Source: Candidatus Eiseniibacteriota bacterium
Lineage (GTDB): Bacteria > Orphanbacterota > Orphanbacteria > Orphanbacterales > Orphanbacteraceae
DNA length: 64,000 nt
Direction: 5' to 3'
Assembly: GCA_029262235.1 (NCBI GenBank)
Contig: JAJCZU010000006.1
Coordinates: 1 to 64,000 of the forward strand
Both the position numbers and the translations under genes were made by a program. Below are positions 14,201 to 48,246 of this stretch, piece by piece. Under the pieces are notes generated by a model. It was not told the DNA's origin, ran no database searches, and was given only the letters and a program-made list of their open reading frames with translations. Each line of letters begins with the position of its first letter. Position 1 is the first letter of the stretch.

Positions 14201-14734
14201 ATGAAGAAGGCTTTAGTATTAGGCGCTGCTCTGCTGATGTTCGCTGGTGTTGCCAGCGCACAGTACAGTGTCGAACTTGACCAGAATGCGACGCTGGGCG
14301 ATGGCCCGGACTTCGCGGCGGCCGTTCCGGCCGGCGCCGTTGCCATTGATGCTTGGATTACGGGACAGGCGTCCTTCGTCTACTCCGGTAACTTCACGCT
14401 CAGCCATGCCGGCCCGGCCACGTGGAATCCGTACACGCATGCTACGGGTTGGACGACGACCCCCGATCAGAACCAGGGTGGAAACGACTGGCTCGTCCAG
14501 GCGACCGACTTCGGTTTTGGCGGTCTGGTTCCGCCGTTCCTTCATGGTACGGCCAACTACACGTATGACGGTCCGGTCGGCATCGTGACGGTTTCCGTCG
14601 TGCAGCCGAACGGCTGGTTCGACTCGAGCTTCACCTCGGGTCCGTTCACGAACAACACCGGCGCGTCCTTCGGTATCGGCGTCACCGCCACCGAAGAAAC
14701 GAGCTGGGGTGCGGTCAAAGATCTGTTCCGGTAG
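14201..14734 (+). CDS. Secreted protein with SWGxVKxLFR C-terminal tag (paralogue 1)
   Basis: 177 residues with a cleavable signal peptide (MKKALVLGAALLMFAGVASA, then QYSVELD). The body looks all-beta, without known motifs. Its second half (WLVQATDFGFGG ... GWFDSSFTSG) aligns with the product of the next gene (WLFQSTDFSFGS ... GWFTTAFVSG), so the two are paralogues. It ends exactly with TEETSWGAVKDLFR. ATG at 14201 is preceded by GGAAGGAG; an in-frame ATG at 14180 overlaps that site. It has its own promoter and a UUCG-loop terminator, and uses GGT glycine codons often. Function unknown; exported to the periplasm or surface by inference. Confidence 0.8.
   Translation: MKKALVLGAALLMFAGVASAQYSVELDQNATLGDGPDFAAAVPAGAVAIDAWITGQASFVYSGNFTLSHAGPATWNPYTHATGWTTTPDQNQGGNDWLVQATDFGFGGLVPPFLHGTANYTYDGPVGIVTVSVVQPNGWFDSSFTSGPFTNNTGASFGIGVTATEETSWGAVKDLFR
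14690..14734 (+). other. C-terminal tag, copy 1
   Basis: Codes for TEETSWGAVKDLFR followed directly by the stop. Shares S-W-[GS]-x-V-K-x-[LI]-F-R with the ends of two other exported proteins (15569-15613 and 30838-30882). It is not a membrane helix and has no basic tail, unlike PEP-CTERM or LPXTG signals. Confidence 0.75.
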
Positions 14735-14760
14735 ATCTGAGACTGGCTTTTGCTAGTTCG

Positions 14761-14794
14761 AAAGGCGGCCTTCTTCGGAAGGCCGCCTTTTTTT
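14761..14794 (+). terminator. Intrinsic terminator with UUCG tetraloop
   Basis: AAAGGCGGCCTTC pairs with GAAGGCCGCCTTT around TTCG, then a T-run to 14794. Confidence 0.95.
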
Positions 14795-14860
14795 GTGCCC
14801 GTACTGTTTCCTCTGCCGGCGGCGTCAAGCCCGGCCGCCCTCGAAATTCCTAATTTCCCG

Positions 14861-14889
14861 TTGACACCCCACGTCCTGATTCCTATAGT
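14861..14889 (+). promoter_or_regulatory. Consensus sigma-70 promoter for the second tagged protein
   Basis: TTGACA (14861-14866), a 17-base spacer and TATAGT (14884-14889), about 80 bases before the start at 14972. Confidence 0.75.
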
Positions 14890-14971
14890 AGGCCAGTCTA
14901 TTTATGTCGTACCAAACCTTCGGGAGAGCGGAACGTTTTCCTCAGTTCTACAGGAAAGGAGACGGTCACCC

Positions 14972-15613
14972 ATGAGCGGCCGAATCAATTACAAATCGAT
15001 GTTCGCGGGGATCGGGTGCGCCCTTCTCTTCAGTGTTGCGGGCGCTTCCGCTGATGTTTTCATCGGCATGGACGAGGACGCCGACCTCGAGTGCTCGACG
15101 GACGAAATGATCAAGAACAGCGCAACGGCCATGAACGATCAGCAGATCGACATCTTCTTCGAGGGAGATAATCTCTACTCGGCGAATTGCACGTTCTGCA
15201 TCGAGGACGCGGCGACGATCTCTCTCGACACGGTCATTGCCACGGTGCCGGGGGCCTGGACCATTACAGATCTGCAGAACTCGGAAGACACTCCGGGTAT
15301 GTCAGTCGCAGACTGGATCAAGACGGCCTATCCGAGTTACAAGTGCTGGCTCTTCCAGTCGACGGACTTCTCGTTCGGAAGCCCGATCGGCCCGGGCGCG
15401 GTGAAGATCGCCGAAGTGCACTACGACATCTTGACGTCGGGTCGCCTCGGTTTCCATATCGACGGCGCGAACAGCGGCTGGTTCACGACGGCATTCGTGT
15501 CGGGGTCATGCGCCGAACCGCCGGGGAGCGCCACGTGCAAGTGCTTCACGGGCACAGGCGCCACGAGCTCCGAAGAGTCGAGCTGGAGTGCGGTGAAACA
15601 GATCTTCCGCTAG
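14972..15613 (+). CDS. Secreted protein with SWSxVKxIFR C-terminal tag (paralogue 2)
   Basis: 213 residues with a signal peptide (about 1-27, ending ...VAGASA). Six or more cysteines lie in the mature part (CSTDE, NCTFC, YKCW, SGSCAE, CKC). The region around WLFQSTDFSFG and GWFTTAFVSG matches paralogue 1. It ends exactly with SEESSWSAVKQIFR. ATG at 14972 follows AGGAAAGGAGA. Own promoter and terminator. Function unknown. Confidence 0.8.
   Translation: MSGRINYKSMFAGIGCALLFSVAGASADVFIGMDEDADLECSTDEMIKNSATAMNDQQIDIFFEGDNLYSANCTFCIEDAATISLDTVIATVPGAWTITDLQNSEDTPGMSVADWIKTAYPSYKCWLFQSTDFSFGSPIGPGAVKIAEVHYDILTSGRLGFHIDGANSGWFTTAFVSGSCAEPPGSATCKCFTGTGATSSEESSWSAVKQIFR
15569..15613 (+). other. C-terminal tag, copy 2
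   Basis: Codes for SEESSWSAVKQIFR and the stop. Same spacing to the stop codon as copies 1 and 3; the Gly after Trp is replaced by Ser. Confidence 0.75.
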
Positions 15614-15636
15614 ATTTTGCTATTCTGATTGCATGG

Positions 15637-15668
15637 AAAGAGCCTTCCTTCGGGGAGGCTCTTTTTTT
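15637..15668 (+). terminator. Intrinsic terminator with UUCG loop
   Basis: AAAGAGCCTTCC pairs with GGGAGGCTCTTT (one mismatch) around TTCG, followed by T's to 15668. It ends just 12 bases before the next start codon. Confidence 0.92.
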
Positions 15669-15679
15669 ATGATGGAGAC

Positions 15680-18052
15680 ATGAGCATGATGCCCAGCAGA
15701 AAGCCTTCCGGTTCCGTCAGCCTGCCACGGCGCGCCATCCGCGCGGCCGTCGCGATCGTGTTCCTGCCCGCGCTGATGCTGTCCGGTGCGGGGTGCGGCG
15801 GGGGAGACGACGGACGCCCCCTTTCCCTGATCGTGATTTCCATCGACACGATGCGGCCGTCGCGGCTCGGCTGCTACGGAAACGATGCGATCGAAACGCC
15901 GCACATCGATCAGCTCGCCGCGCGCGGGGCGCGCTTTACGAACTGCATGGCGAGCGCGCCTCTCACTCTTCCGAGTCACGCCTCGATCCTGACAGGCCAG
16001 TATCCGTTCCGCCATCGCGTGCGGAACAACGGTCGGTACGTGCTGGGCGACGAACGCGAGAGCATCGCGGAAATATTGAAGCACAAAGGATATGAAACGG
16101 CGGCGTTCGTCGGCGCGTTTCCCCTGGCCGCGAAGTTCGGCCTCTCGCAGGGATTCGATCGCTATGACGACGAGTTTCAGGAAGCGATCAACAAGGTGCA
16201 GGAATACGAGGAGCGCAGCGCGGACCGCGTGGTCGACGCGGCGCTCGCGTGGCTCGATGAAAAGGGCGAGGAAGACATGTTCCTGTTCGTCCATTTCTTC
16301 GATCCGCATTTCCGCTACGAGCCGCCGGAACCGTTCCTCACGAAGTACGCGTCGAATCCGTATGATGGCGAGGTCGCGTTCGTGGATCAGGAAATCGGCC
16401 GACTGCTTGCCGCACTGCGCGAGAAGGGGATCGATCGTCGCGCGTTGATCGTGCTGACGGGGGACCACGGGGAGTCGTTCGGCGAGCATGGCGAGATGTC
16501 GCATGCGATCTTCGTCTATGACGCCACGATTCGAGTACCGCTTGTCCTTTTGTGGCCCGATCGAGTATCGGAATCGATTCCCTGGGCGCGCGGCTCCGTA
16601 GTGGACGATCTCGTGCGCACGATCGACATCGCCCCCACGGCGCTTGCGCTGCTGGAAGCCCCGCCTCTGGCGGAAGCCCAGGGCGTGAATCTGTCCCGGC
16701 CCGGAGCACTCGGTACGATCGAGAACGCGTACTCGGAATCGTTCGCCTCGAAGGAAGACTACGGGTGGAGCCCGCTCCGTTCGATCCGGACGCCCGAGTG
16801 GAAGTACGTCATGGCGCCGCGGCCCGAACTCTACGATCTCGTGAACGACCCGGGCGAAACGGTCAACCGGATCGACGAAGAGACGGCCATCGCCGAACGC
16901 CTTGCCTCGGAACTCCAGGCCTGGGTGACGGAAGACAAGAGCCGCGGTACGAATGAGGCGAAGCCGCTCGACGATGAAACGCGCGCGAAACTGGAAGCGC
17001 TCGGCTATGCGACCCGAGGCGGCAATCCCCGCGTAAGCGAGGCGGCGCTGCCGGACCCGAAGGACCGTATCGGAATTGCGGACGAGGTGTATGACGCGGA
17101 GGGACTCTCGACCGCCGGCCGGTACGACGAGGCGATCGCGATGCTCGAGGATATCCTGGCGCGGGACGCTTCCAATCACCGCGCCTGGAAGCTGCTCGGG
17201 GACGCGTACATGCAGGTCGGCGATCTTGCGTCGGCCCGCAAGGCTCTCGACAAAGGGCTGGAGACCGAACCGGACAATCCGTTTCTGCTCATCTCCGATG
17301 CGCACTTCTATTCGCTGAGCGGCGACTACGACACTTCGAACGAAATCCTCCGCGCGGTCATCGCGATGCATCCGAAGCACGAGGGAGTGCACGGATTGAT
17401 CGCCGAAAACTACATGGCGGTCGAAGACTGGGAAGGTGCGATCCGCGAAGCCGTCATGGAAACGGAGAAGAACCCGGCTTCCGTTTCATCATGGAACAGT
17501 TTAGGTGCGGTCTATTCCCTTTCCGGCGACCAGGACCGCGCGATCGAAACGTTCCGCCACGCGATCGAAGTCGATCCGACCGACGCGCGGTCGCACTTCA
17601 ATCTAGGCAACGTCCACATGGACCGGGGAGAGTCCGATCGCGCGATCGCGTCGTATCAGGAGGCTTTGCGCGTGGATCCGGGCTTTGTCGAGGCCTATCA
17701 GAACTGGTCCTACATCGAGGCCGAGGCGGGGCGCATGGAGAAGGCGGTTACGCTGCTGCAGAAAGCGATTCGCGTCGATCCGACCTACTCGAACTCCTAC
17801 CTGCTTCTCGGGAACCTGAGCCGGAAGGCGCGCGCCTACGACGCTGCCATCAAACACTACCGAACCGGCCTTCACTACGACCCGCGCAATCAGGACCTGC
17901 TGCTGGGGCTCGGTACGGCGCTGGCCAACACCGGCCGCCTCGAAGAGGCGATCCCCGCATGGCAGGAAGCGATCGCGATTGCGCCGGGGACGCAGGCCGC
18001 GCGCGCCGCGGCGGCCAACATGGCAACCGCGCGCGCGAGTATGGGAAGGTGA
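15680..18052 (+). CDS. Sulfatase/phosphatase-superfamily lipoprotein with TPR tail
   Basis: 790 residues. A lipoprotein signal ends at LSGAGC (Cys39). Residues 48-430 are an alkaline-phosphatase-superfamily sulfatase domain: SIDTMRPSRLGCYG (metal Asp56), LPSHASILTG, HFFDPHFRYEPPEPF and LTGDHGESFGEHGEMSHA. The nucleophile slot reads T96-L-P-S-H instead of C/S-x-P-x-R, so formylglycine formation is not expected; Thr may act directly, as in phosphotransferase members. Residues 470-790 are about eight TPR repeats. The likely site is the periplasm or outer membrane; the substrate is unknown. Followed 5 bases later by a TPR-only secreted protein. Confidence 0.82.
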   Translation: MSMMPSRKPSGSVSLPRRAIRAAVAIVFLPALMLSGAGCGGGDDGRPLSLIVISIDTMRPSRLGCYGNDAIETPHIDQLAARGARFTNCMASAPLTLPSHASILTGQYPFRHRVRNNGRYVLGDERESIAEILKHKGYETAAFVGAFPLAAKFGLSQGFDRYDDEFQEAINKVQEYEERSADRVVDAALAWLDEKGEEDMFLFVHFFDPHFRYEPPEPFLTKYASNPYDGEVAFVDQEIGRLLAALREKGIDRRALIVLTGDHGESFGEHGEMSHAIFVYDATIRVPLVLLWPDRVSESIPWARGSVVDDLVRTIDIAPTALALLEAPPLAEAQGVNLSRPGALGTIENAYSESFASKEDYGWSPLRSIRTPEWKYVMAPRPELYDLVNDPGETVNRIDEETAIAERLASELQAWVTEDKSRGTNEAKPLDDETRAKLEALGYATRGGNPRVSEAALPDPKDRIGIADEVYDAEGLSTAGRYDEAIAMLEDILARDASNHRAWKLLGDAYMQVGDLASARKALDKGLETEPDNPFLLISDAHFYSLSGDYDTSNEILRAVIAMHPKHEGVHGLIAENYMAVEDWEGAIREAVMETEKNPASVSSWNSLGAVYSLSGDQDRAIETFRHAIEVDPTDARSHFNLGNVHMDRGESDRAIASYQEALRVDPGFVEAYQNWSYIEAEAGRMEKAVTLLQKAIRVDPTYSNSYLLLGNLSRKARAYDAAIKHYRTGLHYDPRNQDLLLGLGTALANTGRLEEAIPAWQEAIAIAPGTQAARAAAANMATARASMGR

Positions 18053-18057
18053 CACGG

Positions 18058-19353
18058 ATGCGATTGAAATGGTTTGCATGCGCATTCCTGGCGCTGGCGG
18101 TCTTGACCGCACCGTCCCGGGCCCGGGGGGATGTCCTTCTGGAGGCGCGACAACTCGTCTTTGCGGGTGATCGCGAAGCGGCGCGCACGCTGCTGGAAGA
18201 ACAGTTGCGGAAAACCCCCGGCGACCCCGATGTCCATCTCACGTATGCATTCGTGCGGGGCGCTCTCGGCGAACGCGCCGAGGTACGGTCCGAATACGTG
18301 AACCTTCTGCGTGGCGATCCGGACAATCCGATCTATGCGGTCACGATGCTTTCCGTTTCCCCGCCGTCGCAGTTCGTTACCCGCACGTTCGCCCGACTCC
18401 TCGAAAAGAACCCGGAGTTTGCGCCCGGGTGGGAAGAGTGGGGCCGTTTTCACCTGATCAACTGGAATCCGGCGGAGGCCATTCCGCAGCTCGAGCGCGC
18501 CATCGCCCTCGCGCCCGGGCGCACGCGCTCGCTCCTTTATCTGGGGCTGGCGCACCGCACCCTGGGCGATTTCATGCCGGAGATCCGCTATCTCTCGCAG
18601 GCGTTTCAGGCCGATTCGCTCGACGCGCAGATTCGCGCCGAGTGGGCGTTCACGATTCTCGACCGCGGCGATCCGGCGCTTGCCCTGCGGGTTCTGGAGC
18701 CGCTGCTGGGGGGGAGCGTCGAGGACGACTACCCGTTCGTGATCGCGGCCGCGGCCCACGCGCATCTCGGCGAAACGGCTCTCTCGGAAGCGCGGAAGCG
18801 CGAAGCGGAGAGCAGGAATCCGAACCTGCTGCGCGACATTCTGCATCGCGGCATCCAGTTTCGCAACGTCGCGCAGGGGCGCGAGGCAGAGCGGATGTTT
18901 CGCCTCGCGCTCGATCTCGACCCGCACTACGACAAAGCCGCCGTACAGCTCGGCATTCTGCTCATGAACCGCGGCCAGTTCGCGGAGGCACGAAAGACTT
19001 TCGAAGACCTGGTAGGGACACCGGCGGGCAGGACGGACGCCGTGTCATGGAAGCATCTCGGCGTCTGTGCCGCGGAGCTCGGGAAACAGGAAGTCGCGCT
19101 GGCGCACTTCGACACGGCCCTCGCGATCGATCCCGATCTCGTGGCCGCCCGGTCGGAACGTGCCCGGGCACTGACACGGCTCGAGCGATTCGACGAAGCG
19201 GCAGACGAATGGGAGCGCGTGATCGATCGGGATCCTCTCGGCTGGGTCGCGGCCGAGGCGCGCCGATCGATCAGCCCTTTGCGCAGGGGAGAAGCGCCAC
19301 CTGCGATCGAGCCGCAGAACGAGGGGATCAAGCCCCCGACCGGGGTCCGCTGA
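18058..19353 (+). CDS. Secreted TPR-repeat protein
   Basis: 431 residues with a signal peptide (MRLKWFACAFLALAVLTAPSRARG). The rest is TPR-type helical repeats, clearest at about 145-180 (AEAIPQLERAIALAP), 280-320 (REAERMFRLALDLDPHYDKAAVQLG) and 340-385 (KQEVALAHFDTALAIDPD). TPRs form protein-binding scaffolds. Five bases separate it from the sulfatase-TPR gene, so it probably works with that protein in the cell envelope. No enzymatic motif seen. Confidence 0.8.
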   Translation: MRLKWFACAFLALAVLTAPSRARGDVLLEARQLVFAGDREAARTLLEEQLRKTPGDPDVHLTYAFVRGALGERAEVRSEYVNLLRGDPDNPIYAVTMLSVSPPSQFVTRTFARLLEKNPEFAPGWEEWGRFHLINWNPAEAIPQLERAIALAPGRTRSLLYLGLAHRTLGDFMPEIRYLSQAFQADSLDAQIRAEWAFTILDRGDPALALRVLEPLLGGSVEDDYPFVIAAAAHAHLGETALSEARKREAESRNPNLLRDILHRGIQFRNVAQGREAERMFRLALDLDPHYDKAAVQLGILLMNRGQFAEARKTFEDLVGTPAGRTDAVSWKHLGVCAAELGKQEVALAHFDTALAIDPDLVAARSERARALTRLERFDEAADEWERVIDRDPLGWVAAEARRSISPLRRGEAPPAIEPQNEGIKPPTGVR

Positions 19354-19361
19354 CGTTTGGC

Positions 19362-19390
19362 TTGGAAGTTGCAGATCCAGTTCGTATACT
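19362..19390 (+). promoter_or_regulatory. Probable promoter for the C25 peptidase
   Basis: TTGGAA (19362-19367), a 17-base spacer and TATACT (19385-19390), about 60 bases before the start at 19451. Confidence 0.55.
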
Positions 19391-19450
19391 GAGTATGAAA
19401 TCTCCCGCTCACCCCTGCCGAATCCCCGTCAAGGAAGGCTAACGCAAAGA

Positions 19451-22400
19451 ATGAGAATCGGTTATTGCTTCATCGCGGCGCTTTCCGTGATGTTCCTGAT
19501 GAACGCCGGCCGAGCCGAGGCCGCGCGCGTGTCCTCCGATGGGGACGGTTCGGTTACCCTTGTCCTGACACCGGACCGCTATCGAATCGCGGAAACGACG
19601 ATTCAGGGAGAAACGTTCCGCGAGGTAAGGGGACTCGGCACCGGCGTCAGCGCGGGGGGCAGGCCCGACCTGCCGACCCAGGGGTACTGGGTCGCGATCC
19701 CGGACGGCATGGAGCCGCGACTTACGATCGTGCGCACGGACTACGAAGATCTTCCGGGGCCCCCGATTGCGCCGGCGCCGAAGGACACCCTGTTCGGACG
19801 CACGCGCGAACCGGGGTTCACGCAGTCGATCGACCGCGCGTTCTACCAGACTTCCGCGCTGTATCCGGAGGCGATTGCCACGCTCGGCGAGTTCGAGCGC
19901 TTCCGGAATCAGCGCGTCGTTCCCGTTCGTTTTCATCCGTACCGGACCATGCCTTCGAGCGGAATGCTCCGCATTTATAATGAAGTGGAAGTGCGGATCG
20001 ACTTCGTTCCCGCACCGGCAGAGAAGCGCGCGGCGGGCGCGCGTGAGCCGGCACGCGACGAGGCGAAGTGGGAGGGCCTGTACCAGGGCACGATCGTGAA
20101 CTACGAGCAGGGGCGCGGGTTCCGATCGCGGCCTGCGAGAACGGGGCAGCAGAGAGCTTCGAAGTCGTCCCGTGTGGAAAACGAGTACAAGCTTTTCATC
20201 GAGAAGAGCGGCGTCTACAAGATCCCGTTCGCCGAACTGAACAAGAAGGGCCTCGCCGGGGGCGCCTCCGTCGACCGGATCTCGATCTACAGGCGCGGCT
20301 TCTCCGAACAGCTTCTGCAGGACGACCTGAGTCCGTTCACCGAGGTGTCGCTGCCCACGCGCGTGCTCGACAAGACGGGCAACGGCACGTTCGAAGACGG
20401 CGACACGGTGATTTGCTTCCTGCCCGGGTTTCGAGAAGATCGCATGGAGCGTGACTTCGAGGATCGGTTTGCGATCGAGGCTGTGTATTTCCTGTCTGTC
20501 GAAGGGGAGGCCCGCCCGGCCGCGACCCGGAGCGCGAACCTCGGCCTCGCGAGTCCGACTTCTCTCACGTCGTTCCCCGACTCGATACGATGGGAGATCG
20601 ACGTGCAGTACGACGGGAAGTCGCCGACCGACACGATCGATCACTATTTCGCGGGCGGAAACCGGATCGAAAGCCGTACGACGCAGATCGAACTCGGCGC
20701 CATTGACCCCTCCGTTCTGTTCGGCGTGAAAGGGATGGTGGTTTCCACCGTATCCGAAGGCTCGGGCGCTCTTCTTTATCACCGGTACCGGCTCGAAACG
20801 GCGGGCGGGACCGAGATCTTCAATTATCTGAACTTCGGCGAGCGCGCGAATCTTTCGCGCACGGGGCGCGTGCACGACCCTGTTCTGCTTGTCGAGGGTC
20901 TGAACAACATTCGCTACTTCGGGTCCCGTGGCCGCGCGGTTGAAACGACGACGCCGGGAGCGGGGGGGCATCTCGACTGGTACGAGATTCACGCGAACTT
21001 CCTGTACAAGGCCCACCAGGGTGCGCTTCATTTTTCGACGGGGACCGGTTCCGGTCCGGTCGCAATGACCGTGACGGGATTCCCGAGCGCGCAGGTTCAT
21101 GTCTGGGACGTGACCGATCCGTACGGCGCGAGCGTGATTGAAGCGGCAGCTACCGGCAGTGGCGGGAACTTCGCGATTACGATCCAGGACACGATCAACG
21201 GCGGGCGGCACGCGTACCGTGCGTACGCGGGGAGCGCGATTCCGGTGCTGAAGAGCGCGAAGATCGTGGCGGATCTGCCGACGAACCTCGCGTCGGCGCA
21301 GTCCGATTACCTGATGGTCGCGCACGAGGACTTCTACGATGCCGTCGCGCCGCTCGAGGAGTACCGCGAGTCGAAAGGGTACACCGTGGAGCGCGCGCGG
21401 ATCAGCGACGTGTACGACGAGTTCAACGGGGGCGTGAAGGATCCGGTCGCGATCCGGAATTACGTGCGCTACGGATTTACGGCGTGGGACAAGCAGCCCC
21501 TTTTTCTGCTGCTCGTCGGGGACGGTTTCGAAGACTACAAGAATCTCGCCGTGAATCGGGGGAACAGCGGCGATGACTTCGATTTCATCCCCGCGTACCC
21601 GGGTTATACGCGTCAGATTTTCGGAAGCGGCGACAACTGGGACGCCAGCGATCCCTGGTTCGGCTTTCTCGACGGCGACCGGGACGCGCTGCTCGACGTC
21701 ATCGTCGGGCGCATGCCGGTCAAAACCGCGTCGGAAGCCGAAATCATCGTCGAAAAGACGATTGCCTACGAAGACTTCTCGCCGAACGACACCTGGCGGA
21801 ATCGCATGATCTTCATGGCGGACGACCGCTGGGTCTTCGACTCCGGCTGCATCGAAGACGGGCGTCAGCCGCAGTTCGAATCGAACTCGCGCGTGTTCGT
21901 CGAGAACCTGCTCGAATCTTCCGCCCGCGACATGGATACGGCGACCATTTATCTGAGCACGTCGACGGATGCCGTTCACGAAATGTGCCCGTGCGCCGCG
22001 AACCCCAACTCCACACAGGAAGCCGACGTCGACTGCGTGATCGCCGGCGCGCGCGCCACGGTCGGAAAGCGCATGTTCGACCAGTTGAACGGGCCGGGCG
22101 CATTGTTCGTGAATTTTCAGGGGCACGGAAACCGGAATGTGCTGACGCATGAAGTCGTCGTCCGTCAGGGGCCCGACTACAGGAACAACACGTCGAACGA
22201 TTTCGACGTCAACACGAACAACAAGGGACGCCCTTACATTTTTGCCGCGTACGGCTGTTCGATCTCCGAATTCGATCGATTTACGTCATTCGGTTACGAG
22301 GCGCTGACGGAAGTCATGATCCGGAGCGACAAGGGAGGCGCGGTCGCGGCGTTCGGTTCAACCGGGATCGAATTCCTTTCACCGAATCTCGCTCTCAACA

Positions 22401-23548
22401 GTTCGATCCTGAAGTATTTCTATCAGTCTCCCGGAATCGTTCCTTCCATCGATGTGAACGGAAGTCCGCCGCCCTGGTACCAGGGTGTTCCGCGCTGGTC
22501 GATCGGCGAGATCATCGCGCTCGGACTGAACGACTTTGCGGTGCGCAGTCCGCTCGGCAGTCCGGATACGATCCGGCGCTATGCGATCTTCGGTGACCCT
22601 GCCCTTATGATGGACGCGTCGATTCCGAAATTCGAAGTGTTCCTCGACGGCATTCCCACCACGAACGGGGGAGTGGTGACATCCAACCTCGACGGCACGC
22701 CCGTCCTCGTGACGGCGCAGGTGCGCGACGAGGTGCTGATCCCGCGTGATTCGATCGCCGTGTTCGCGGGTGCCGTGGCGCTCGACACGGCGGCTTATTC
22801 GGTCATCGCCGATACGACGTGGCAGGAAGGGCACGCGTGGAACCTCGCGTTCGAACTCGACCTTGACTCGGACGAGTCCGTGGACTACACGCTGCGCGCG
22901 GTCGACCTGAACGGGCGCGTTTCGACGTTCGTGCTGAAGACGACGGCTGCGATGATCCTGACAGTGGACGGACGCGAACTGGTCGATGGCGCCCTCGTTT
23001 CGCCGCGACCGACGATCCGCGCCGAAATCACGACTCCGCGGCCCGTGACGGCGAACGAGATCGACATCATGATCGATGGCGTGTCGCTGCTTCTCGACAG
23101 CCTCGTCAGCATCGACCAGTTCCGGTGGGTCGCCGTGGCGCGCCCGACCCTGTCGGGCGGAACCCATACGCTGAAGGTCACCGTGGGGGCGCAGAGCGTC
23201 GAATACATGATCCGGGTCGATGCCACGTTCCGCGTGGCGGACCTGCTGAACTATCCGAATCCGGCCGAAGACGGTACCGGCTTCTACTACGAGCTTACGG
23301 ACCAGGCCGACGAGGTGTCGATCGAGGTGTTCACGGTGAACGGGCGCCGGATCCGCACATTCCGCGACCTCGGCTCGCGCGCGGGCTACAACGAGAACCC
23401 TCTCGTCTGGGACGGCACGGACGCGGACGGGGATCGCGTGGCGAACGGAGTCTACATCTATCGCCTGCAGGCCCGCCGCGCCGACGACCGGGTCGAAGCG
23501 ATGGGGAAGGCGGTTTTCCTCCGCACCACCCCTCCCGAAGACGAATGA
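19451..23548 (+). CDS. C25 (gingipain/PorU-like) cysteine peptidase with FlgD-like C-terminal domain
   Basis: 1365 residues with a signal peptide (about 1-24, ending NAGRAEA). A long N-terminal beta region (to about 600) precedes the C25 domain: LLLVGDGFEDYKN, VIVGRMPVKTASEAEIIVEK, FVNFQGHGNRNVLTHE with His892, and FAAYGCSISEFDR with Cys936, followed by GGAVAAFGSTGIEFLSPNLALN. This catalytic block is closer to PorU, the type IX sortase-like peptidase, than to secreted gingipains. Ig-like modules fill 1020-1260. The end is a FlgD-like domain with NYPNPAEDGTGFYYEL, VFTVNGRRIRTF, WDGTDADGDRVANGVYIYRLQA. It is likely cell-surface and acts as protease or sortase; both readings are open. Confidence 0.85.
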   Translation: MRIGYCFIAALSVMFLMNAGRAEAARVSSDGDGSVTLVLTPDRYRIAETTIQGETFREVRGLGTGVSAGGRPDLPTQGYWVAIPDGMEPRLTIVRTDYEDLPGPPIAPAPKDTLFGRTREPGFTQSIDRAFYQTSALYPEAIATLGEFERFRNQRVVPVRFHPYRTMPSSGMLRIYNEVEVRIDFVPAPAEKRAAGAREPARDEAKWEGLYQGTIVNYEQGRGFRSRPARTGQQRASKSSRVENEYKLFIEKSGVYKIPFAELNKKGLAGGASVDRISIYRRGFSEQLLQDDLSPFTEVSLPTRVLDKTGNGTFEDGDTVICFLPGFREDRMERDFEDRFAIEAVYFLSVEGEARPAATRSANLGLASPTSLTSFPDSIRWEIDVQYDGKSPTDTIDHYFAGGNRIESRTTQIELGAIDPSVLFGVKGMVVSTVSEGSGALLYHRYRLETAGGTEIFNYLNFGERANLSRTGRVHDPVLLVEGLNNIRYFGSRGRAVETTTPGAGGHLDWYEIHANFLYKAHQGALHFSTGTGSGPVAMTVTGFPSAQVHVWDVTDPYGASVIEAAATGSGGNFAITIQDTINGGRHAYRAYAGSAIPVLKSAKIVADLPTNLASAQSDYLMVAHEDFYDAVAPLEEYRESKGYTVERARISDVYDEFNGGVKDPVAIRNYVRYGFTAWDKQPLFLLLVGDGFEDYKNLAVNRGNSGDDFDFIPAYPGYTRQIFGSGDNWDASDPWFGFLDGDRDALLDVIVGRMPVKTASEAEIIVEKTIAYEDFSPNDTWRNRMIFMADDRWVFDSGCIEDGRQPQFESNSRVFVENLLESSARDMDTATIYLSTSTDAVHEMCPCAANPNSTQEADVDCVIAGARATVGKRMFDQLNGPGALFVNFQGHGNRNVLTHEVVVRQGPDYRNNTSNDFDVNTNNKGRPYIFAAYGCSISEFDRFTSFGYEALTEVMIRSDKGGAVAAFGSTGIEFLSPNLALNSSILKYFYQSPGIVPSIDVNGSPPPWYQGVPRWSIGEIIALGLNDFAVRSPLGSPDTIRRYAIFGDPALMMDASIPKFEVFLDGIPTTNGGVVTSNLDGTPVLVTAQVRDEVLIPRDSIAVFAGAVALDTAAYSVIADTTWQEGHAWNLAFELDLDSDESVDYTLRAVDLNGRVSTFVLKTTAAMILTVDGRELVDGALVSPRPTIRAEITTPRPVTANEIDIMIDGVSLLLDSLVSIDQFRWVAVARPTLSGGTHTLKVTVGAQSVEYMIRVDATFRVADLLNYPNPAEDGTGFYYELTDQADEVSIEVFTVNGRRIRTFRDLGSRAGYNENPLVWDGTDADGDRVANGVYIYRLQARRADDRVEAMGKAVFLRTTPPEDE

Positions 23549-23710
23549 GAGCCCCTCACCGCCCATAACCGTGGCGAATAGCGAGCCCCTATCGCTCGCC
23601 CATATAATTATAGAAGGAATACATTCCCGCCCTGGAAATCACCCTCCGGGGCGGTTCTCATAGCGGCCCCCAGGTCCAGGTGCTACAATGCTGCGCCGAA
23701 AGGGGGCAGG

Positions 23711-25402
23711 GTGCAGATAATCGACTGGGTGGTGGTCGCCGCCTATCTCATTTTTGCTCTGGGCGTGGGGGTGTTCTTCGCCCGCAGAGCCGGGTCCGGG
23801 ATCGAGGAGTATTTCCTCTCGGGCCGCAGCCTGCCCTGGTGGGTCGCGGGCACCAGCATGGTGGCCACGTCATTCGCCGCGGACACCCCGCTCGCCGTCA
23901 CGGAACTCGTGCGCCAGTACGGCATTGCCGGGAACTGGTTCTGGTGGACCTACGCGATCGGCGGCATGCTCTCGGCGCTCCTGTTCGCCCGCTTCTGGCG
24001 CCGCGCCGGCGTTCTGACCGACGCGGAGCTCACGGAAATCCGATACGACGGCCGGGGCGCCGCCATTCTGCGCGGGTTTCGCGGATTCTACTTCGCCACG
24101 ATCCGGAACTGCCTCGTCATGGGCTGGGTGATTCTGGCCATGGCCACTCTCGTGAGTACGCTGTTTCCCGGCTTCGACAAAGGTCTCGCCGTCGCGCTCT
24201 CGTGCGCCATCGCGCTTACGTACGCGGTGCTCTCCGGCTTCTGGGGCGTTGTCGTCACGGACCTCGTTCAGTTCGCGCTCGCGATGACGGGAGCGATCGC
24301 CACCGCGTTCTTCTCCGTGCGCGAAGTCGGCGGCATGAAGGCCATGCAGAGCGGCCTGCTCGAGGCTCATGGCGCGGGACTTACGTCATTCCTGCCGTCG
24401 CTCGACGGGAGTTCGTTTCTTCCGATGTCGGCGTTTCTGATCTATGTGTTTTTCCTGTGGTGGTGCACGGACAACGCCGACGGCGGCGGCATGATCATTC
24501 AGCGCATGAGCGCGTCGAAGAACGAAAACGAGGCGCTGAAGGCCACGGTGTGGTTCAACTTCGCGCACTACGGACTGCGCACATGGCCCTGGGTGCTCAC
24601 GGCGCTCGCCTCGCTCATTCTCTTTCCCGACCTGACCGACGACAAGCTGGCCTACCCGCAGACGGCGCTCACGGTGCTGCCGGCGGTATGGAAGGGGATT
24701 CTCGTCGCGTCGATTCTCGCGGCGTTCATGTCGACGATCGATACGCACCTCAACTGGGGCGCTTCGTACCTCGTAAACGACATCTACCGGCGTTTTCTGC
24801 GCCCGGACGCCTCGATGCCAGGCCTCGTTCTTGTCTCGCGCATCTCGACAGTTCTGCTGATGGTGCTCGGGGGCATCATCGCCCTGCAGTACAGCACGAT
24901 CACGGGCGCATGGATTCTGACGCTCTCGCTCGGCGCAGGCGCGGGCGTCGTTTACGTCCTCCGCTGGGTGTGGTGGCGCGTGAATGCCTGGTCTGAACTC
25001 TCGGCCATGATCGCCTCGATCCTCGTCAACATCGTTCTGCGCGTCTGGTTTCCCGACCTCAAATTCCCGTACTCGATTCCCGTGGTCGTTTTCGCTTCCG
25101 CCGCCATCTGGATTCCCGTGACGTTTCTGACGAGCCCGGTAGGCGACGAAAGGCTCCACACGTTCGTCGCGCGCGTGCGCCCCGTCGGTTTCTGGTCACG
25201 CTTCCGTCCTGTAGACGATCCGAACCGGCTCGGGCGTTGGCTTTTTCTCTGGGTCGTGGCCACTGCCGCGCTTTATGGCTTCCTGTTCGGGGGCGGCGCG
25301 GCCCTGTTCGGCCGATGGGGGCTCTCGGGGGTCTGCTTCGCGATCTCGATTCTGGGCGGCTGGTACCTGTTCCGATCGCTCGATCGGGAGGGCTGGTTTT
25401 GA
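23711..25402 (+). CDS. Sodium:solute symporter family transporter
   Basis: 563 residues with about 13 membrane helices. N-terminal family signature: GIEEYFLSGRSLPWWVAGTS followed by SFAADTPLAV. Middle blocks include VLSGFWGVVVTDLVQF and AFMSTIDTHLNWGASYLVNDIYRRF, which match the SSS family. GTG start at 23711 with AGGGGGCAGG just before it. Its stop is beside or overlapping the anmK start, so the solute may be a cell-wall sugar, but the sequence alone does not show this. Another member of the same fold could carry amino acids or organic acids. Confidence 0.87.
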   Translation: MQIIDWVVVAAYLIFALGVGVFFARRAGSGIEEYFLSGRSLPWWVAGTSMVATSFAADTPLAVTELVRQYGIAGNWFWWTYAIGGMLSALLFARFWRRAGVLTDAELTEIRYDGRGAAILRGFRGFYFATIRNCLVMGWVILAMATLVSTLFPGFDKGLAVALSCAIALTYAVLSGFWGVVVTDLVQFALAMTGAIATAFFSVREVGGMKAMQSGLLEAHGAGLTSFLPSLDGSSFLPMSAFLIYVFFLWWCTDNADGGGMIIQRMSASKNENEALKATVWFNFAHYGLRTWPWVLTALASLILFPDLTDDKLAYPQTALTVLPAVWKGILVASILAAFMSTIDTHLNWGASYLVNDIYRRFLRPDASMPGLVLVSRISTVLLMVLGGIIALQYSTITGAWILTLSLGAGAGVVYVLRWVWWRVNAWSELSAMIASILVNIVLRVWFPDLKFPYSIPVVVFASAAIWIPVTFLTSPVGDERLHTFVARVRPVGFWSRFRPVDDPNRLGRWLFLWVVATAALYGFLFGGGAALFGRWGLSGVCFAISILGGWYLFRSLDREGWF

Positions 25403-25407
25403 GCGGA

Positions 25408-26568
25408 ATGCGCCTGATCGGCCTCGTCAGCGGAACCTCGATGGACGGAATAGACGCGGCTGCCATCCATGTGCGGGCGCGCGGGGAGAAACTCGCGGTC
25501 GCGCTCGAAAACTTTCGCACGGTGCCGTACCCGGAAGGGGTCGCAAGGGCGCTTCGCAGGCATCACGGGCCCGGGAAGAGTGACCGCGATGAACTCGCCG
25601 CGCTCTCGATCGAGGTAGGGCGCCTGTTCGGTCGCGCGGCGGCCCGCGTGGCGGGAGGCGCAGCGCGGCTGCAGGAATATGACGCGATCGGATCGCACGG
25701 GCAGACGCTGCTGCATCGCCCCGGCGCGAAACACCCGTTCAGCCTCCAGATCGGGGACGGCGTGACGATCGCCGGCCGGACCGGGCTTCCGGTCGTGTAC
25801 GACTTTCGTTCCGCGGACATCGCGGGCGGGGGTGAAGGGGCGCCGGTGCTGCCGATCGCGGATTACCTGCTCCTGCGATCCGGCAGGCGGGATCGCGCCG
25901 TGCTGAACCTCGGCGGGGTTGCGAACCTGACGTGGCTTCCGCGCGCCGGCGGCTGGGGCGGCGTTCGTTCGTTCGACACCGGGCCCGCCAACGCACTCAT
26001 GGACAGGATCATGCAGTCGCGCTTCGGAAAGCCGTACGACAAGGACGGTGGGCTGGCGCTCTCGGGAAGCGTGGACGACGCGCTGCTCGCGCGGCTCATG
26101 CGCCATCCGTATTTTCGGCGCAAGCCGCCGAAGTCCACCGGCTTCGAGGAATTCGGCGACGCGTTCGCCCGGGATGCGCTGCGGGGTCTGCGCAGGAACC
26201 GGATTCCGGACGTGCTGGCGACTCTGGCCGCGCTCACGGCGCGCACGGCCGCCGCAGGATTCAGCTCTCTGACGAGCACGCCGTTCGACCTGGCGCTTGC
26301 CGGCGGGGGCGCTGCGAACGGCGCGATCACGCGCGCTCTCGAGCAGGCGATTCCGTACGCCCGCTTCGTCCCCCTTGCGGAGTGGGGGCAGGATCCTGCG
26401 GCGCGCGAAGCGATCGGCTTCGCCGTGCTGGCCCATGAATTCCTCCGCGGCCGGCGTTATGTTATGAAGCACGTTACCGGCTCGAAGAGCGTGGCGCCTC
26501 TCGGCGTGCTCGCCCCGGGCGAGAAACCGTACACCCTTCGTTTTCCCCTCGATCGGAATCTCCCATGA
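25408..26568 (+). CDS. anmK: Anhydro-N-acetylmuramic acid kinase
   Basis: 386 residues. It converts 1,6-anhydro-MurNAc to MurNAc-6-phosphate with ATP, a step in peptidoglycan recycling. Family blocks: LVSGTSMDGIDAA, DAIGSHGQTLLHRP, FSLQIGDG, VVYDFRSADIAGGGEGAPVLP, RAVLNLGGVANLTWLP, DTGPANALMD and LALAGGGAANGAI. The start may be ATG 25408 or TTG 25399; the TTG overlaps the symporter stop and has a better-placed GGGAGGG. Its last four bases overlap the SpoIID gene. Confidence 0.92.
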   Translation: MRLIGLVSGTSMDGIDAAAIHVRARGEKLAVALENFRTVPYPEGVARALRRHHGPGKSDRDELAALSIEVGRLFGRAAARVAGGAARLQEYDAIGSHGQTLLHRPGAKHPFSLQIGDGVTIAGRTGLPVVYDFRSADIAGGGEGAPVLPIADYLLLRSGRRDRAVLNLGGVANLTWLPRAGGWGGVRSFDTGPANALMDRIMQSRFGKPYDKDGGLALSGSVDDALLARLMRHPYFRRKPPKSTGFEEFGDAFARDALRGLRRNRIPDVLATLAALTARTAAAGFSSLTSTPFDLALAGGGAANGAITRALEQAIPYARFVPLAEWGQDPAAREAIGFAVLAHEFLRGRRYVMKHVTGSKSVAPLGVLAPGEKPYTLRFPLDRNLP

Positions 26569-27842
26569 AACGCAACGCTTTGTTCCTCTTGTTTCTGATC
26601 GTACTGACGGCCGGCTGCTCACCCCGCCCGCCCGTGCGTCTGTCGCCGGTCGCCGCGGCGCGAACACCCGTCGGCCCTGTCCGGATCGCGCTGCACGAAA
26701 GCGCGCCGGAGGTCGCGGTCGCGTTTCCCGAGGGAGGGAAATGTGTCTGGCAGGGCGGCGATCTCGATGTCCCGGCGGGGGGCTCGCTCACATTCGTCGC
26801 GGCGGAGGCGAACGAGATGCACGTGCGCGAAGCGGGGAATCTGCGCGCCATCGTGACGGCGGCCACCGTGCAGCCGACGGCGGGCGGCGTCTTCGAAACG
26901 GAAGGGCGTCCTTACGGCGGTACCTTCGACCTCATCATTCACGACGGGGGGATTCTCGCGATCAACCGGATCGGGCTCGAAGAGTATCTGCGCGGAGTCG
27001 TTCCGTGGGAGATCGGATTCCTGTCCGAAGACAAGCTGGAGGCGCTCAAGTCGCAGGCCGTGGCCGCCCGCACCTACTCGCTGACACGCATCCTGGCCAG
27101 CGACGATATCTGGGACATGAGCGCCGACGAAATGGATCAGGTCTATCGAGGACTCGAGAAGACGAGCCCGGTCGTCGATCGCGCGATCGCGGAGACGGCG
27201 GGCCTGGTGGCGATTGACGGCCACGAGCTCGTGCGGACGTATTACTCTTCGACATGCGGCGGGCGTACTTCGCCACTCGAAGATGTATGGTTCGATCGTG
27301 AAGGTGCGCGTTATCTGCGCGGCGTCCATGACACGCCTTCGGGCGGCCCCGACGAAGAAGCTTCGTACTGCAAGCGATCGCCGCGGTTCGTGTGGACCGA
27401 GATCATGGGCGCGTCGGATATCGAAAAGATTCTGGATGCGCTTGCGCTCGAGATTCCGCGCAATCGGGCTTCGCTCGGACGCCTGAAGAACATCGAGATC
27501 GGACGCCGGGGCAGAACCGGTCGCGTGCTCTATACGGTCTTCGAAACCGAGGGCGGAAGATTCGAGATCCCGGCCGATCGCGTGCGCTGGGTTCTTCGTC
27601 GCCCGGCGGACGGCGGCATCCTGCGAAGCACGTGGTTCAATTTAAAGGTAAAACGTTCCGGCGGCTTCGTCCGCGAAGTGCAGGTCGACGGTCGCGGCTT
27701 CGGGCATGGAATCGGCATGTGCCAGTGGGGCGCGATGGGAATGGCCGAGCGGGGCCGTTCGTACGAAGAGATCCTGAAACACTACTATCCCGGCATCCGG
27801 ATCGGTATCTACGATCCCGGCGCGCGCGGGGGAGATGCGTGA
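26565..27842 (+). CDS. SpoIID/LytB-domain lipoprotein
   Basis: 425 residues with a lipoprotein signal (LIVLTAGC, Cys18). SpoIID domain from about 145: GLEEYLRGVVPWEIGF, LEALKSQAVAARTYSL, AGLVAIDGHELVRTYYSSTCGGRTS and the C-terminal VDGRGFGHGIGMCQWGAMGMAERGRSYEEIL. SpoIID proteins are lytic transglycosylases acting on denuded glycan or amidase enhancers. This organism shows no sporulation genes, so a general cell-wall role fits. Overlaps anmK and the GH3 gene by four bases each. Confidence 0.9.
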   Translation: MKRNALFLLFLIVLTAGCSPRPPVRLSPVAAARTPVGPVRIALHESAPEVAVAFPEGGKCVWQGGDLDVPAGGSLTFVAAEANEMHVREAGNLRAIVTAATVQPTAGGVFETEGRPYGGTFDLIIHDGGILAINRIGLEEYLRGVVPWEIGFLSEDKLEALKSQAVAARTYSLTRILASDDIWDMSADEMDQVYRGLEKTSPVVDRAIAETAGLVAIDGHELVRTYYSSTCGGRTSPLEDVWFDREGARYLRGVHDTPSGGPDEEASYCKRSPRFVWTEIMGASDIEKILDALALEIPRNRASLGRLKNIEIGRRGRTGRVLYTVFETEGGRFEIPADRVRWVLRRPADGGILRSTWFNLKVKRSGGFVREVQVDGRGFGHGIGMCQWGAMGMAERGRSYEEILKHYYPGIRIGIYDPGARGGDA

Positions 27843-29341
27843 GCAGGACTCCCGATTCGATCCGGCGCGCGTGCGGCGCCGTTCTGATGGCCGCCCCGCG
27901 CGGCAAGGCACTGACGAAAGCGGAAGAGAAGATCCTGCGCGACGGCCGCGTCGGCCACGTCATCCTGTTCGCGCAGAACGTGGAATCGCCGGAGCAACTC
28001 GCGAAACTCACGAAACAGATTCGAGACGTCGCCCCCGGACGCTGCCTGATCGCGATCGACCACGAGGGCGGGCTCGTGGCGTTCGGCGCGGGCGCGGTGG
28101 AGCGTGGTCCCACGGCGCTCGCGCTCGGCGCCACCGAGTCGGAGTCGCTTGCTCAGAAGTGGGGGCGCTACTTCGGCAGCGCGTTTCGTGCGTGCGGGGT
28201 GGATGTCGTGTTCGCGCCCGTCCTCGATGTTCTGTCGACGGAGGGGGGCGAGGTGATCGGCACGCGCGCTTTCGGTTCGAAGCCGGCGCGCGTGTCGCGG
28301 CTCGGGGAAGCGATGCGGCGCGGCCTGGAAGCCGGCGGCGTTCTGACCTGCGCCAAGCACTTCCCGGGACACGGCGGCGTGGTCGCCGACTCTCATCTGA
28401 CCCGGCCGCGCGACGACCGCCCGCTTGCCCGCTGGACGCACCGCGATCTCGTGCCGTTCCGCGCCGCGATTCGCGCCGGCATCGGTTCCATCATGGTCGC
28501 TCATATCGAAACGCCCGCGCTCGGCGCAGCGGGCGTGCCGGCGTCCGCGTCGGAAGCCGTGCTGCACGGCCTGCTGCGCGAACGGCTCGGCTTTCAGGGC
28601 ATCATCGTGTCCGATGCGATCGACATGAACGCGTATGAGCCGTCGCTTCTGCGCGCGAGCCTGCTGGCCGGCGTCTCGCTCTTTCCGATGGGAGGGACGC
28701 TGCGTGATGCCGCGGCACTCGGCGCGAAGATCGCGGAAGACCTCAGGGACGATGGCGACGGGCACTGGCATCTCGCGCGGAGTGCGATGGAGATCGCAAA
28801 ATGGGCGGGATCCGCTGGAAAGCGCGCGTCGCGCTCCCGGGCCAAGCCGTCACCCGTGCCTGCGATGCCGGGCGCGGCGGGGATCGCGCGCCAGGGGAGG
28901 GCGGCTCCGATGGTCACGTCCGACGCCGGCATTCTGCTTCTGCCCGAAGAGCTCGGAGGTCGCATCCGGCTTCCGATCGACACGGGCCATATCGCGAACG
29001 AGCGCGGGGAGGTCTGGATGAGGCGTCACGTGCGCGTCTATCCTTTCGATCCGGGCGCGGGTATACGCCGGAAGCTTCTCGCCGCCCTTCCTGCCGGAGA
29101 GCCTGTCACGCTCGCCCTGGCGCACCGCGGGAAGCCGCCCGCCGGCCAGGTCGCGTTTCTCGAGGCTCTCAGAAGCGACGGCAGGCTCGGCTGCGCGGTG
29201 TCCCTTCTCGACCCGCACGACCTCATGGCCCGGCGCGAGGTGGGGTATCGGCTCCATACATTCGACCCGGGCCCGGAGCCCCTCCGATACCTCGTCAAGA
29301 TCCTTGCAGGCGAAGCGAAACCAACGGGAAAACTTCCCTGA
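27839..29341 (+). CDS. Glycoside hydrolase family 3 protein (NagZ-like) with C-terminal extension
   Basis: 500 residues. Residues about 15-320 are a GH3 barrel: HVILFAQNVESPEQL, LIAIDHEGGLVAF, GVDVVFAPVLDV, KHFPGHGGVVADSH with the general acid-base His pair, and IIVSDAIDMNAY with the nucleophile Asp. NagZ enzymes cut GlcNAc from muropeptides. About 150 residues follow the barrel, longer than typical NagZ (about 340 residues) and shorter than two-domain beta-glucosidases. GTG at 27839 overlaps the SpoIID stop and has GGGGGAG before it; ATG 27887 is the alternative. No signal peptide, so probably cytoplasmic. Confidence 0.85.
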   Translation: MSRTPDSIRRACGAVLMAAPRGKALTKAEEKILRDGRVGHVILFAQNVESPEQLAKLTKQIRDVAPGRCLIAIDHEGGLVAFGAGAVERGPTALALGATESESLAQKWGRYFGSAFRACGVDVVFAPVLDVLSTEGGEVIGTRAFGSKPARVSRLGEAMRRGLEAGGVLTCAKHFPGHGGVVADSHLTRPRDDRPLARWTHRDLVPFRAAIRAGIGSIMVAHIETPALGAAGVPASASEAVLHGLLRERLGFQGIIVSDAIDMNAYEPSLLRASLLAGVSLFPMGGTLRDAAALGAKIAEDLRDDGDGHWHLARSAMEIAKWAGSAGKRASRSRAKPSPVPAMPGAAGIARQGRAAPMVTSDAGILLLPEELGGRIRLPIDTGHIANERGEVWMRRHVRVYPFDPGAGIRRKLLAALPAGEPVTLALAHRGKPPAGQVAFLEALRSDGRLGCAVSLLDPHDLMARREVGYRLHTFDPGPEPLRYLVKILAGEAKPTGKLP

Positions 29342-29348
29342 CAAGTGA

Positions 29349-29378
29349 TTGACACTTTCGAAAACTCAGTGCTACATT
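29349..29378 (+). promoter_or_regulatory. Promoter for tRNA-Asp
   Basis: TTGACA (29349-29354), an 18-base spacer and TACATT (29373-29378), about 18 bases before the tRNA. Confidence 0.65.
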
Positions 29379-29396
29379 CCTGATCTATTTGCTTGC

Positions 29397-29473
29397 GGGG
29401 TCGTGGTGCAGCTGGTTAGCACACTGGCCTGTCAAGCCAGAGGTCGCGGGTTCGAGTCCCGTCGGCCCCGCCA
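29397..29473 (+). tRNA. tRNA-Asp (anticodon GTC), CCA encoded
   Basis: Acceptor GGGGTCG/CGGCCCC (one G-T pair), D arm GTGC-GCAC, anticodon stem CTGGC/GCCAG with loop CTGTCAA (GTC), T arm GCGGG-TTCGAGT-CCCGT, discriminator G (29470) and encoded CCA (29471-29473). Confidence 0.96.
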
Positions 29474-29531
29474 GCAGAATCTTCTATTCCACCCCCGACT
29501 TTCCCGGATCCAGTATTGCAGGAAGACCGAG

Positions 29532-29555
29532 GGGCGGCGCCAGGCCGCTCTTTTT
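29532..29555 (+). terminator. Terminator for tRNA-Asp
   Basis: GGGCGGC pairs with GCCGCTC (one G-T) around GCCAG, followed by TTTTT. The rest of 29474-29883 holds no convincing gene; apparent frames over the tRNA are artefacts. Confidence 0.75.
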
Positions 29556-29883
29556 CCGGCTACCCATGCCTCCATGTGACCAGATCGAGCCCTCCGGGGT
29601 CCAATCACTATAGGAAACGGCTTTGGATCGCCCGGCTTCTCCCGCCGGCGACGCAGGATCCCGGGAGCGGCCGCCGGATTGGGGAAAATGCCCCGATTCA
29701 GGGCCTTCAGCCCCACAACCCGCCGGATTCTGCGTAGAGTAGAAACAAGGCCTCCCGACGTAACCCCCTGTCAGACAAGCAACAACGAGATCGATCCGCC
29801 CGAGCCTCGATGGCTCGTCCCCTGGCACCCGACTTGCAATTCAACGGGGAAGAGGATCAGCACCTGGACTGGAGGTCCGCATC

Positions 29884-30882
29884 ATGAATCTGCAACCGAG
29901 ATCCATCGCTCTAAGCGCCATTCTTACGGCGCTCGCTGCGTCCGGACCCGCTCACGCGGCGACCATCGTGGTCAAGGCGGGAGAATCGATCCAGGCGGCT
30001 CTGAACGCCGCTCAGCAGGGTGACGTCGTGGCGGTCGATCCCGGCCACTTCACGGTGAACCTGACCATGCCCGACGGCGTCACGCTTCGCGGCGCCGGGG
30101 CCGATTTCACGACCCTCGACGGCGCGGGCGTCTACTCCGTGATCCGGGTCCCCGCCAGGGCGGCGCGTGACACGCGGATCGAAGGTTTCCGGATCATCAA
30201 CGGCAATGCCGAGCGCGGAGGCGGCATCTCGGTCGGCCTGCTCTCTTTCCCCACGATCTCCGACTGTGAGTTCGTCGGGAATCATGGCAGACAGGGCGGG
30301 GGAGTCTATATAGGCGAGGCCGGCGGCGCCACGATCGAACGGTGCCGATTCATGGAGAATACGGCTCTGGAAGGCGCGGGCATCTATATCTTCCGCGGAC
30401 CGGCCACGATTCGTTTCAACACCTTCTGCGGGAACGAGGCGGACATTACCGGAGGCGGAATGCACTTCGCGAACACGATCGGCGCCGTAGCTGTCAATAA
30501 CACGATTGTGCGCAACACGTCGGGGCACGGATTCGGCTCCGGAGTCTCGTTCGGCGGGAGCCAGGTCGACTTCAGCCGGAACATCGTCGCTTTCAACGAA
30601 GGCGGGCACGGGCTGTCGGTCGTCGGCTCCGACATCATCGACGAGTGCAACGTGCTGTTCGAGAATCACGAAGGCGACATGTGCGGCAAGGTACCGGGCG
30701 AAACCGACCTGATCGGCGACCCCGGGTTCTGCGACCTGAACGACTGTGAATTGTCGATCCAGGGGAACGGCCTCGCGACGAAGATCGACTGCGGCGGATT
30801 CGCCGGGGCGATGCCCGTCGGGTGCGCCTTCACCGCAAGCGAAACGGTAAGCTGGGGCGAGGTCAAAGCCCTCTTTCGATAA
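29884..30882 (+). CDS. Secreted parallel beta-helix protein with SWGxVKxLFR tag
   Basis: 332 residues with a signal peptide ending AHA-A (about residue 25). The body is a right-handed parallel beta-helix: IQAALNAAQQGDVVAVDPG, VTLRGAGADFTTLDG, then repeating coils such as PTISDCEFVGNHGRQGGGVYIG, ATIERCRFMENTALEGAGIYI and ATIRFNTFCGNEADITGGGMHF. This matches pectate-lyase-like or adhesin-type helices, but no catalytic set is visible. It ends exactly with SETVSWGEVKALFR. ATG at 29884 has GGAGG about 9 bases upstream. Confidence 0.85.
   Translation: MNLQPRSIALSAILTALAASGPAHAATIVVKAGESIQAALNAAQQGDVVAVDPGHFTVNLTMPDGVTLRGAGADFTTLDGAGVYSVIRVPARAARDTRIEGFRIINGNAERGGGISVGLLSFPTISDCEFVGNHGRQGGGVYIGEAGGATIERCRFMENTALEGAGIYIFRGPATIRFNTFCGNEADITGGGMHFANTIGAVAVNNTIVRNTSGHGFGSGVSFGGSQVDFSRNIVAFNEGGHGLSVVGSDIIDECNVLFENHEGDMCGKVPGETDLIGDPGFCDLNDCELSIQGNGLATKIDCGGFAGAMPVGCAFTASETVSWGEVKALFR
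30838..30882 (+). other. C-terminal tag, copy 3
   Basis: Codes for SETVSWGEVKALFR and the stop. The host protein is a beta-helix unrelated in fold to the two proteins bearing copies 1 and 2, so the tag is modular. Confidence 0.78.
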
Positions 30883-48085: not shown

Positions 48086-48139
48086 ATGAGGAGGACCTTG
48101 ATTCTGAGGTTTTCTGATTGGTCAAAGAGGGTGAGATGA
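48086..48139 (+). CDS. Possible 17-residue leader peptide
   Basis: A reading frame MRRTLILRFSDWSKRVR ends in TGA overlapping, by ATGA, an in-frame upstream start (48136) of the PorV/OmpA gene. It has no strong ribosome site. GAGGAGGACC inside it recurs at 48231-48240 as the ribosome site of the downstream gene. Could be a coupling or attenuation leader, or chance. Confidence 0.25.
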   Translation: MRRTLILRFSDWSKRVR

Positions 48140-48246
48140 AACAGCGAGTTGATAATAAAAGTCAGAGTGAAATCAGAGAGAGAGTCAAACAGTCGGATGA
48201 GTCATTGAAGTACTCATTTGATCCCTATGAGAGGAGGACCGAGAGA

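Follow-up and report, generated by a model that had tools for sequence, protein, structure and literature searches.

The tagged genes of the window

The window, that is, the whole stretch of 64 kb that was analysed, encodes three proteins on its forward strand that bear a signal peptide at the N-terminus and end in the same short motif. Protein 1 (14201..14734, +; 177 aa from the ATG at 14201, in a reading frame that opens at 14180) is beta-rich, and its C-terminal tag, EETSWGAVKDLFR, lies at 14693..14731 (+) with the stop codon directly after. Protein 2 (14972..15613, +; 213 aa) is a distant homologue of protein 1 and carries the tag EESSWSAVKQIFR at 15572..15610 (+), again immediately followed by the stop codon. 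Profile searches found no Pfam match for either protein, and a cohesin identity proposed for the pair was not supported on testing. Protein 3 (29884..30882, +; 332 aa) is a right-handed beta-helix (PF13229, E 1.8e-9) unrelated to proteins 1 and 2; its tag, SETVSWGEVKALFR, occupies 30838..30879 (+) directly before the stop codon, and its last 8-9 residues are modelled as a detached helix. The C-terminal ends are TATEETSWGAVKDLFR in protein 1, TSSEESSWSAVKQIFR in protein 2 and TASETVSWGEVKALFR in protein 3, each terminated by the stop codon. What the sequence-only reading had reported of these genes, namely a common C-terminal tag combined with a signal peptide and a third protein of unrelated fold, is confirmed at these positions.

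Several other features are found in the same region. Just upstream of the tagged pair, positions 12792-13535 encode a small exported protein with two dockerin-like repeats (DFNGSGNVNFFDTFKYLPQL and NCAPPVNFFDTFQYLPDL), which has neither the tag nor a type IX C-terminal domain (CTD) and gave no Pfam match. Between the tagged genes, positions 19451-23548 encode a gingipain-family C25 protease with a C25 propeptide and a FlgD-like C-terminal domain. Genes for tRNA-Val(tac) and tRNA-Asp(gtc) are located at 12365-12438 and 29397-29473, respectively.

Position and consensus of the tag

The genome (4.47 Mb, 11 contigs) was searched with a degenerate codon pattern corresponding to W-x-x-[VIM]-K-x-[LMI]-[FY]-R-stop. 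The pattern gave 60 matches (38 + 22), all of which are in-frame C-termini, while the reversed pattern, used as a control in the same genome, gave none. A relaxed scan adds 6 variants, with L at -6 or a final Q, so that the true number of tags in the genome exceeds 60. When the motif was required to be followed by a non-stop codon starting with A, C or G, only 3 internal copies were found against the 60 at a stop; without any preference for position, about 1/16 of such codons would be expected to be stops. Across the 7 genomes of the phylum, 222 copies are located at a stop and 17 are internal, although 2 of the 222 turned out on reading to be false matches (in one, an in-frame stop interrupts the motif, and the other ends in TGG). 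The enrichment at the exact C-terminus that the sequence-only reading had predicted is thus observed both in this genome and in its relatives, and the opposite outcome, a motif no commoner at C-termini than elsewhere, is contradicted by the same counts. Two of the three internal copies belong to tandem-duplicated tagged lipoproteins. At this locus (L036), three tagged lipoproteins lie in tandem, and the tag copy retained within their duplicated halves is intact in two of them; the internal copies in these two proteins are explained by domain duplication.

The consensus in this genome is T-A-T-E-E-S-S-W-[GST]-x-V-K-x-L-F-R. The search pattern itself fixed residues W, K, [FY] and R, but left E at -13, S/T at -10, G/S/T at -8, T at -14 and T at -16 free. 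Conservation at these free positions is nonetheless high, with E -13 present in 54/60 tails, S/T -10 in 58/60 and G/S/T -8 in 60/60, followed by T -14 (43/60) and T -16 (42/60). The tail is therefore short, as had been claimed, but the proposed length of about 13 residues has to be revised, the conserved unit being nearer 16 (TATE followed by x-x-S-W-x-x-V-K-x-L-F-R).

Predicted shape of the tail

For the last 10 residues, the helical hydrophobic moment is 0.60, compared with 0.35 ± 0.17 for shuffled sequences, and beta periodicity in the same residues shows no excess over shuffles. A hydrophobic W/V/L/F face is flanked by K and R. In the AlphaFold model of protein 3, the beta-helix is confident (pLDDT above 90 for a large part of its core), the linker is of low confidence and a helix at residues 324-331 coincides exactly with the WGEVKALF part of the tag. 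The model of protein 1 is poor (mean pLDDT 46) and places a terminal helix at residues 165-176. Given that the pLDDT of the tail is below 50 in both cases, these models are only suggestive of a flexible linker with a short terminal helix. The amphipathic character attributed to the tail from its letters agrees with the helical moment and with the helices that end these low-confidence models.

Diversity and export of the carriers

After removal of the signal peptide and the tail, the 59 longer tagged proteins of the genome fall into 29 clusters (blastp, E 1e-3) between which no similarity is detectable; the same procedure distributes 191 tagged proteins from all sources over 82 clusters. Some carriers are paralogous and form families of 15, 7 and 4. 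The three proteins of the window are not full-length homologues, as indicated by the unrelated fold of protein 3 and by the 29 clusters that form without the tail. The median length of tagged proteins is 213 aa. Nearly all of those in the genome have a signal-peptide-like start, and a crude signal-peptide rule is passed by 150/190 tagged open reading frames compared with 195/573 neighbouring ones. Domains found on the carriers include beta-helix, CHRD, lamin-tail, C-type lectin, X25, GEVED, cohesin, PPC and thioester domains, together with the NCBIfam 'choice-of-anchor' domains X, E and J and, weakly, T. Among these, the CHRD, lamin-tail, C-type lectin, cohesin, PPC, beta-helix and choice-of-anchor domains are typical of surface proteins. 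Several carriers are lipoproteins, which implies that the tag is not there for anchoring alone.

No model of the tail occurs among the Pfam and NCBIfam matches listed for tagged proteins, and a PDB search with the tail returned no match. A co-occurring processing enzyme, envisaged by the sequence-only reading, did not emerge: clustering of the neighbours of about 190 tagged loci revealed neither a recurrent plausible partner nor a co-located processing enzyme. A comparison of constraint on tail and body between close species gave p = 0.82.

Distribution across phyla

At least four phylum-level groups have the tag, which is thus not restricted to this genome. All 7 genomes of the window's phylum contain it in 19-60 copies each, as do the 20/20 genomes examined in a second phylum, with 19-68 copies. 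A scan of GTDB species genomes identified at least 115 stretches with the motif. About 150 tagged C-termini were read from genomes other than that of the window; most belong to exported proteins, and their consensus is P-V-E-x-x-S-W-G-x-[IV]-K-A-L-Y-R. In 36 of these further genomes, 2-68 copies each were counted, with zero reversed matches. Among the matches listed, record titles with the tag name Eisenbacteria, Krumholzibacteriota, Latescibacterota, 'Gemmatimonadetes' MAGs and one 'Fibrobacter sp.', the phylum labels of MAGs being the depositors' own and possibly wrong. Bacteroidota and Proteobacteria are absent from the 80 record titles listed.

A fourth group, the phylum of genome G037 (64 genomes), is sparse in the tag, with 39/64 genomes giving no pattern match and the others holding 1-5 copies. 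Here the tag often occurs on one small exported protein encoded in a conserved operon (loci L217-L257). A gene for a LarA-like racemase, in some cases with an M24 peptidase gene after it, is followed by one whose product matches FlgT_C weakly and then by that of the small exported protein with the tag; genes for a beta-propeller lipoprotein and a PMT_2 glycosyltransferase come next. The FlgT-like gene was traced in 13 genomes scored as tagless (and in G037), where the same downstream gene is found with variant tails, for example TEVDESTWGKVKEIFK, STEVDESTWGKVKDLFK and TDVEVKTWAKIKDLFD. In these variants, W, K and F are fixed and it is mainly the final residue that drifts, to K, Q or D. As the genes were located through the operon context of the FlgT-like gene, W, K and F are retained here without the tail having served as a search criterion. 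In several other genomes (L258-L260, L262 and L263), the operon is present without the tagged gene. The FlgT-like protein was also considered as a general partner of the tag and was rejected, because the gene is absent from 7/7 genomes of the window's phylum and from the majority of tag-rich genomes.

Comparison with known C-terminal signals

The type A CTDs of the type IX secretion system (T9SS; TIGR04183) and the short CTDs of Prevotella intermedia resemble the tag in being C-terminal, in having Sec-exported carriers, in occurring by the dozens per genome and in ending with a basic residue. They differ in size and fold, since T9SS CTDs comprise about 70-80 residues, or 40-55 for the short ones, and form beta-sheets with motifs B, D and E (PMC11969387), whereas the tag has about 16 residues and is probably helical. 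TIGR04183 is absent from the C-terminus in the matches listed for 124 tagged proteins. A beta-sandwich signal of at least about 40 residues is likewise missing, the conserved unit being of about 16 residues and the low-confidence models ending in a short helix. SprA, a further mark of T9SS cargo, is encoded in the genome, but it is also present in 61/64 genomes of the sparse group.

The PEP-CTERM/exosortase, GlyGly-CTERM/rhombosortase, MYXO-CTERM/myxosortase and LPXTG/sortase systems share with the tag a many-to-one organization, unrelated exported carriers and a positively charged end. These signals are tripartite and contain a membrane helix, with an invariant cysteine in addition in MYXO-CTERM (PMC11980579); the tag has neither. 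The tail contains no hydrophobic helix and the protein ends at the motif, no cysteine occurs in the conserved columns, and there is no LPXTG-like motif followed by a helix and a basic tail.

The motif and its sequences were not found in the literature searched (mostly open-access journal articles), and within the same scope the literature on sorting signals in these phyla does not describe the tag. Altogether, the comparison supports a C-terminal sorting tag that has neither a membrane helix nor a folded domain and is not described in the literature searched.

Relation to type IX secretion

The SprA translocon exceeds the cut-off in all 7 genomes of the window's phylum, in 35/36 of the further tag-bearing genomes and in 61/64 genomes of the sparse group, although 39/64 of the latter have no tag match. 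The presence of a T9SS was thus rejected as a discriminating predictor of the tag, SprA being found nearly everywhere in these groups. PorV-family proteins give 15 matches in this genome and 11-15 per genome across the window's phylum, an expansion of the PorV/PorQ family in this organism and its relatives. One of the 15 is a PorV-family + TSP3 + OmpA fusion (48118..49938, +), which represents a candidate receptor class. PorV genes are not enriched near tags in this genome, with one pair seen and about one expected by chance according to an estimate.

Type A CTDs account for 147 matches in this genome. The T9SS CTD model is absent from the matches listed (E up to 1) for the 124 tagged proteins, a listing that for set A2 covered 25 of 32 families, and it is for this reason that tag and CTD look like alternatives. 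Frames that bear a CTD tend to be long, while the tagged ones have the median of 213 aa. Classes of T9SS signals are reported to be recognized in Flavobacterium by dedicated shuttle proteins (PMC12618676), and a PorV paralogue specific to the tag is plausible on that basis. The smallest T9SS signals in PMC11969387, 40-55 residues long, are three-stranded sheets and not helices.

A PorV-family shuttle of the T9SS is the leading guess for a receptor, given that every tag-rich genome examined has SprA and that the PorV family reaches 11-15 members in the phylum. The tag may then be a second, minimal signal class beside the CTD of about 80 residues; this proposal is tentative, as SprA also occurs where the tag is rare or undetected. 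A more elaborate version, about as tentative, would see in the tag a third class of T9SS signal, a C-terminal helix of about 16 residues where the others have a beta-sandwich. One dedicated paralogue of the expanded PorV family would recognize it, and it would serve the export of small cargo in several uncultured phyla related to FCB, with a single-cargo system as its ancestor.

A separate observation concerns positions 33189-49938 of the window, where a giant protein of 4937 aa with a T9SS-like C-terminal region precedes the PorV-family + TSP3 + OmpA fusion. This pair resembles the substrate/shuttle/peptidoglycan-anchor sets described for type B CTDs.

Interpretation and alternatives

The tail is best explained as a C-terminal post-Sec sorting or docking signal of the cell envelope, with a probability of about 0.6. 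The view that it constitutes a new sorting, docking or attachment signal, as first proposed, is well supported by its exact C-terminal position on dozens of unrelated Sec-exported proteins and by the absence of the features of known systems. According to this mechanism, the pre-protein would enter the periplasm through its N-terminal signal peptide and fold, after which a flexible linker would present the motif E-x-x-S-W-x-x-[VI]-K-x-[LM]-[FY]-R, as a short amphipathic helix, at the free end of the chain. One shared envelope receptor would then take the helix, and the cargo would be delivered to the surface or docked there.

The tail could also act in assembly, its helix docking proteins into a common periplasmic or extracellular structure such as a sheath, an S-layer or a surface complex. 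The precedent lies in the encapsulation peptides of microcompartments and the cargo peptides of encapsulins, where cytoplasmic cargo is directed by a short terminal peptide or amphipathic helix to which a flexible linker connects it; that cargo lacks a signal peptide, whereas most tagged proteins have one, so that the counterpart here would be extracytoplasmic. A short amphipathic helix, joined through a flexible linker to many unrelated proteins that are for the most part small and secreted (median 213 aa), fits such a role, which is nevertheless rather unlikely: neighbour clustering found no shared scaffold protein beside tagged genes, and at least 29 families, lipoproteins included, are a broad set for one structure.

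Direct insertion of the helix into one leaflet of the outer membrane, as an in-plane anchor with no protein receptor, appears improbable. The hydrophobic W/V/L/F face flanked by K and R and the helical moment above that of shuffles are what such an anchor would display, but it would require amphipathicity and not fixed residues, whereas W, K and F are kept in the tails found by operon context and conservation extends to E -13, S -10 and G/S/T -8, which do not face the membrane. Moreover, the tag also occurs on proteins that are already lipid-anchored. Recognition by a C-terminal protease (Prc/Tsp-like), in the manner of a genome-encoded degradation tag for processing or turnover, is very improbable; the exact C-terminal position, probably exposed on a flexible linker, would suit it, but about 60 genome-encoded exported proteins would be marked for decay and no protease recurs among the clustered neighbours. 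Finally, the notion that the tail carries no signal and reflects common descent or coincidence, for which the paralogous families of 15, 7 and 4 might speak, is practically dismissed by 29 unrelated families in one genome, zero reversed matches and hundreds of copies over several phyla.

Significance of a probable sorting tag

C-terminal sorting tags define how bacterial surfaces are built, and several of the known ones have led to a new enzyme or machine. The tag described here, devoid of a membrane helix, is found on dozens of proteins in a single genome and in several phyla with almost no cultured members. It allows the surface proteome of these phyla to be predicted from sequence and offers a defined bait in the search for a receptor. 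Should the tag indeed be a route into type IX secretion, what is accepted as the minimal T9SS signal would change.
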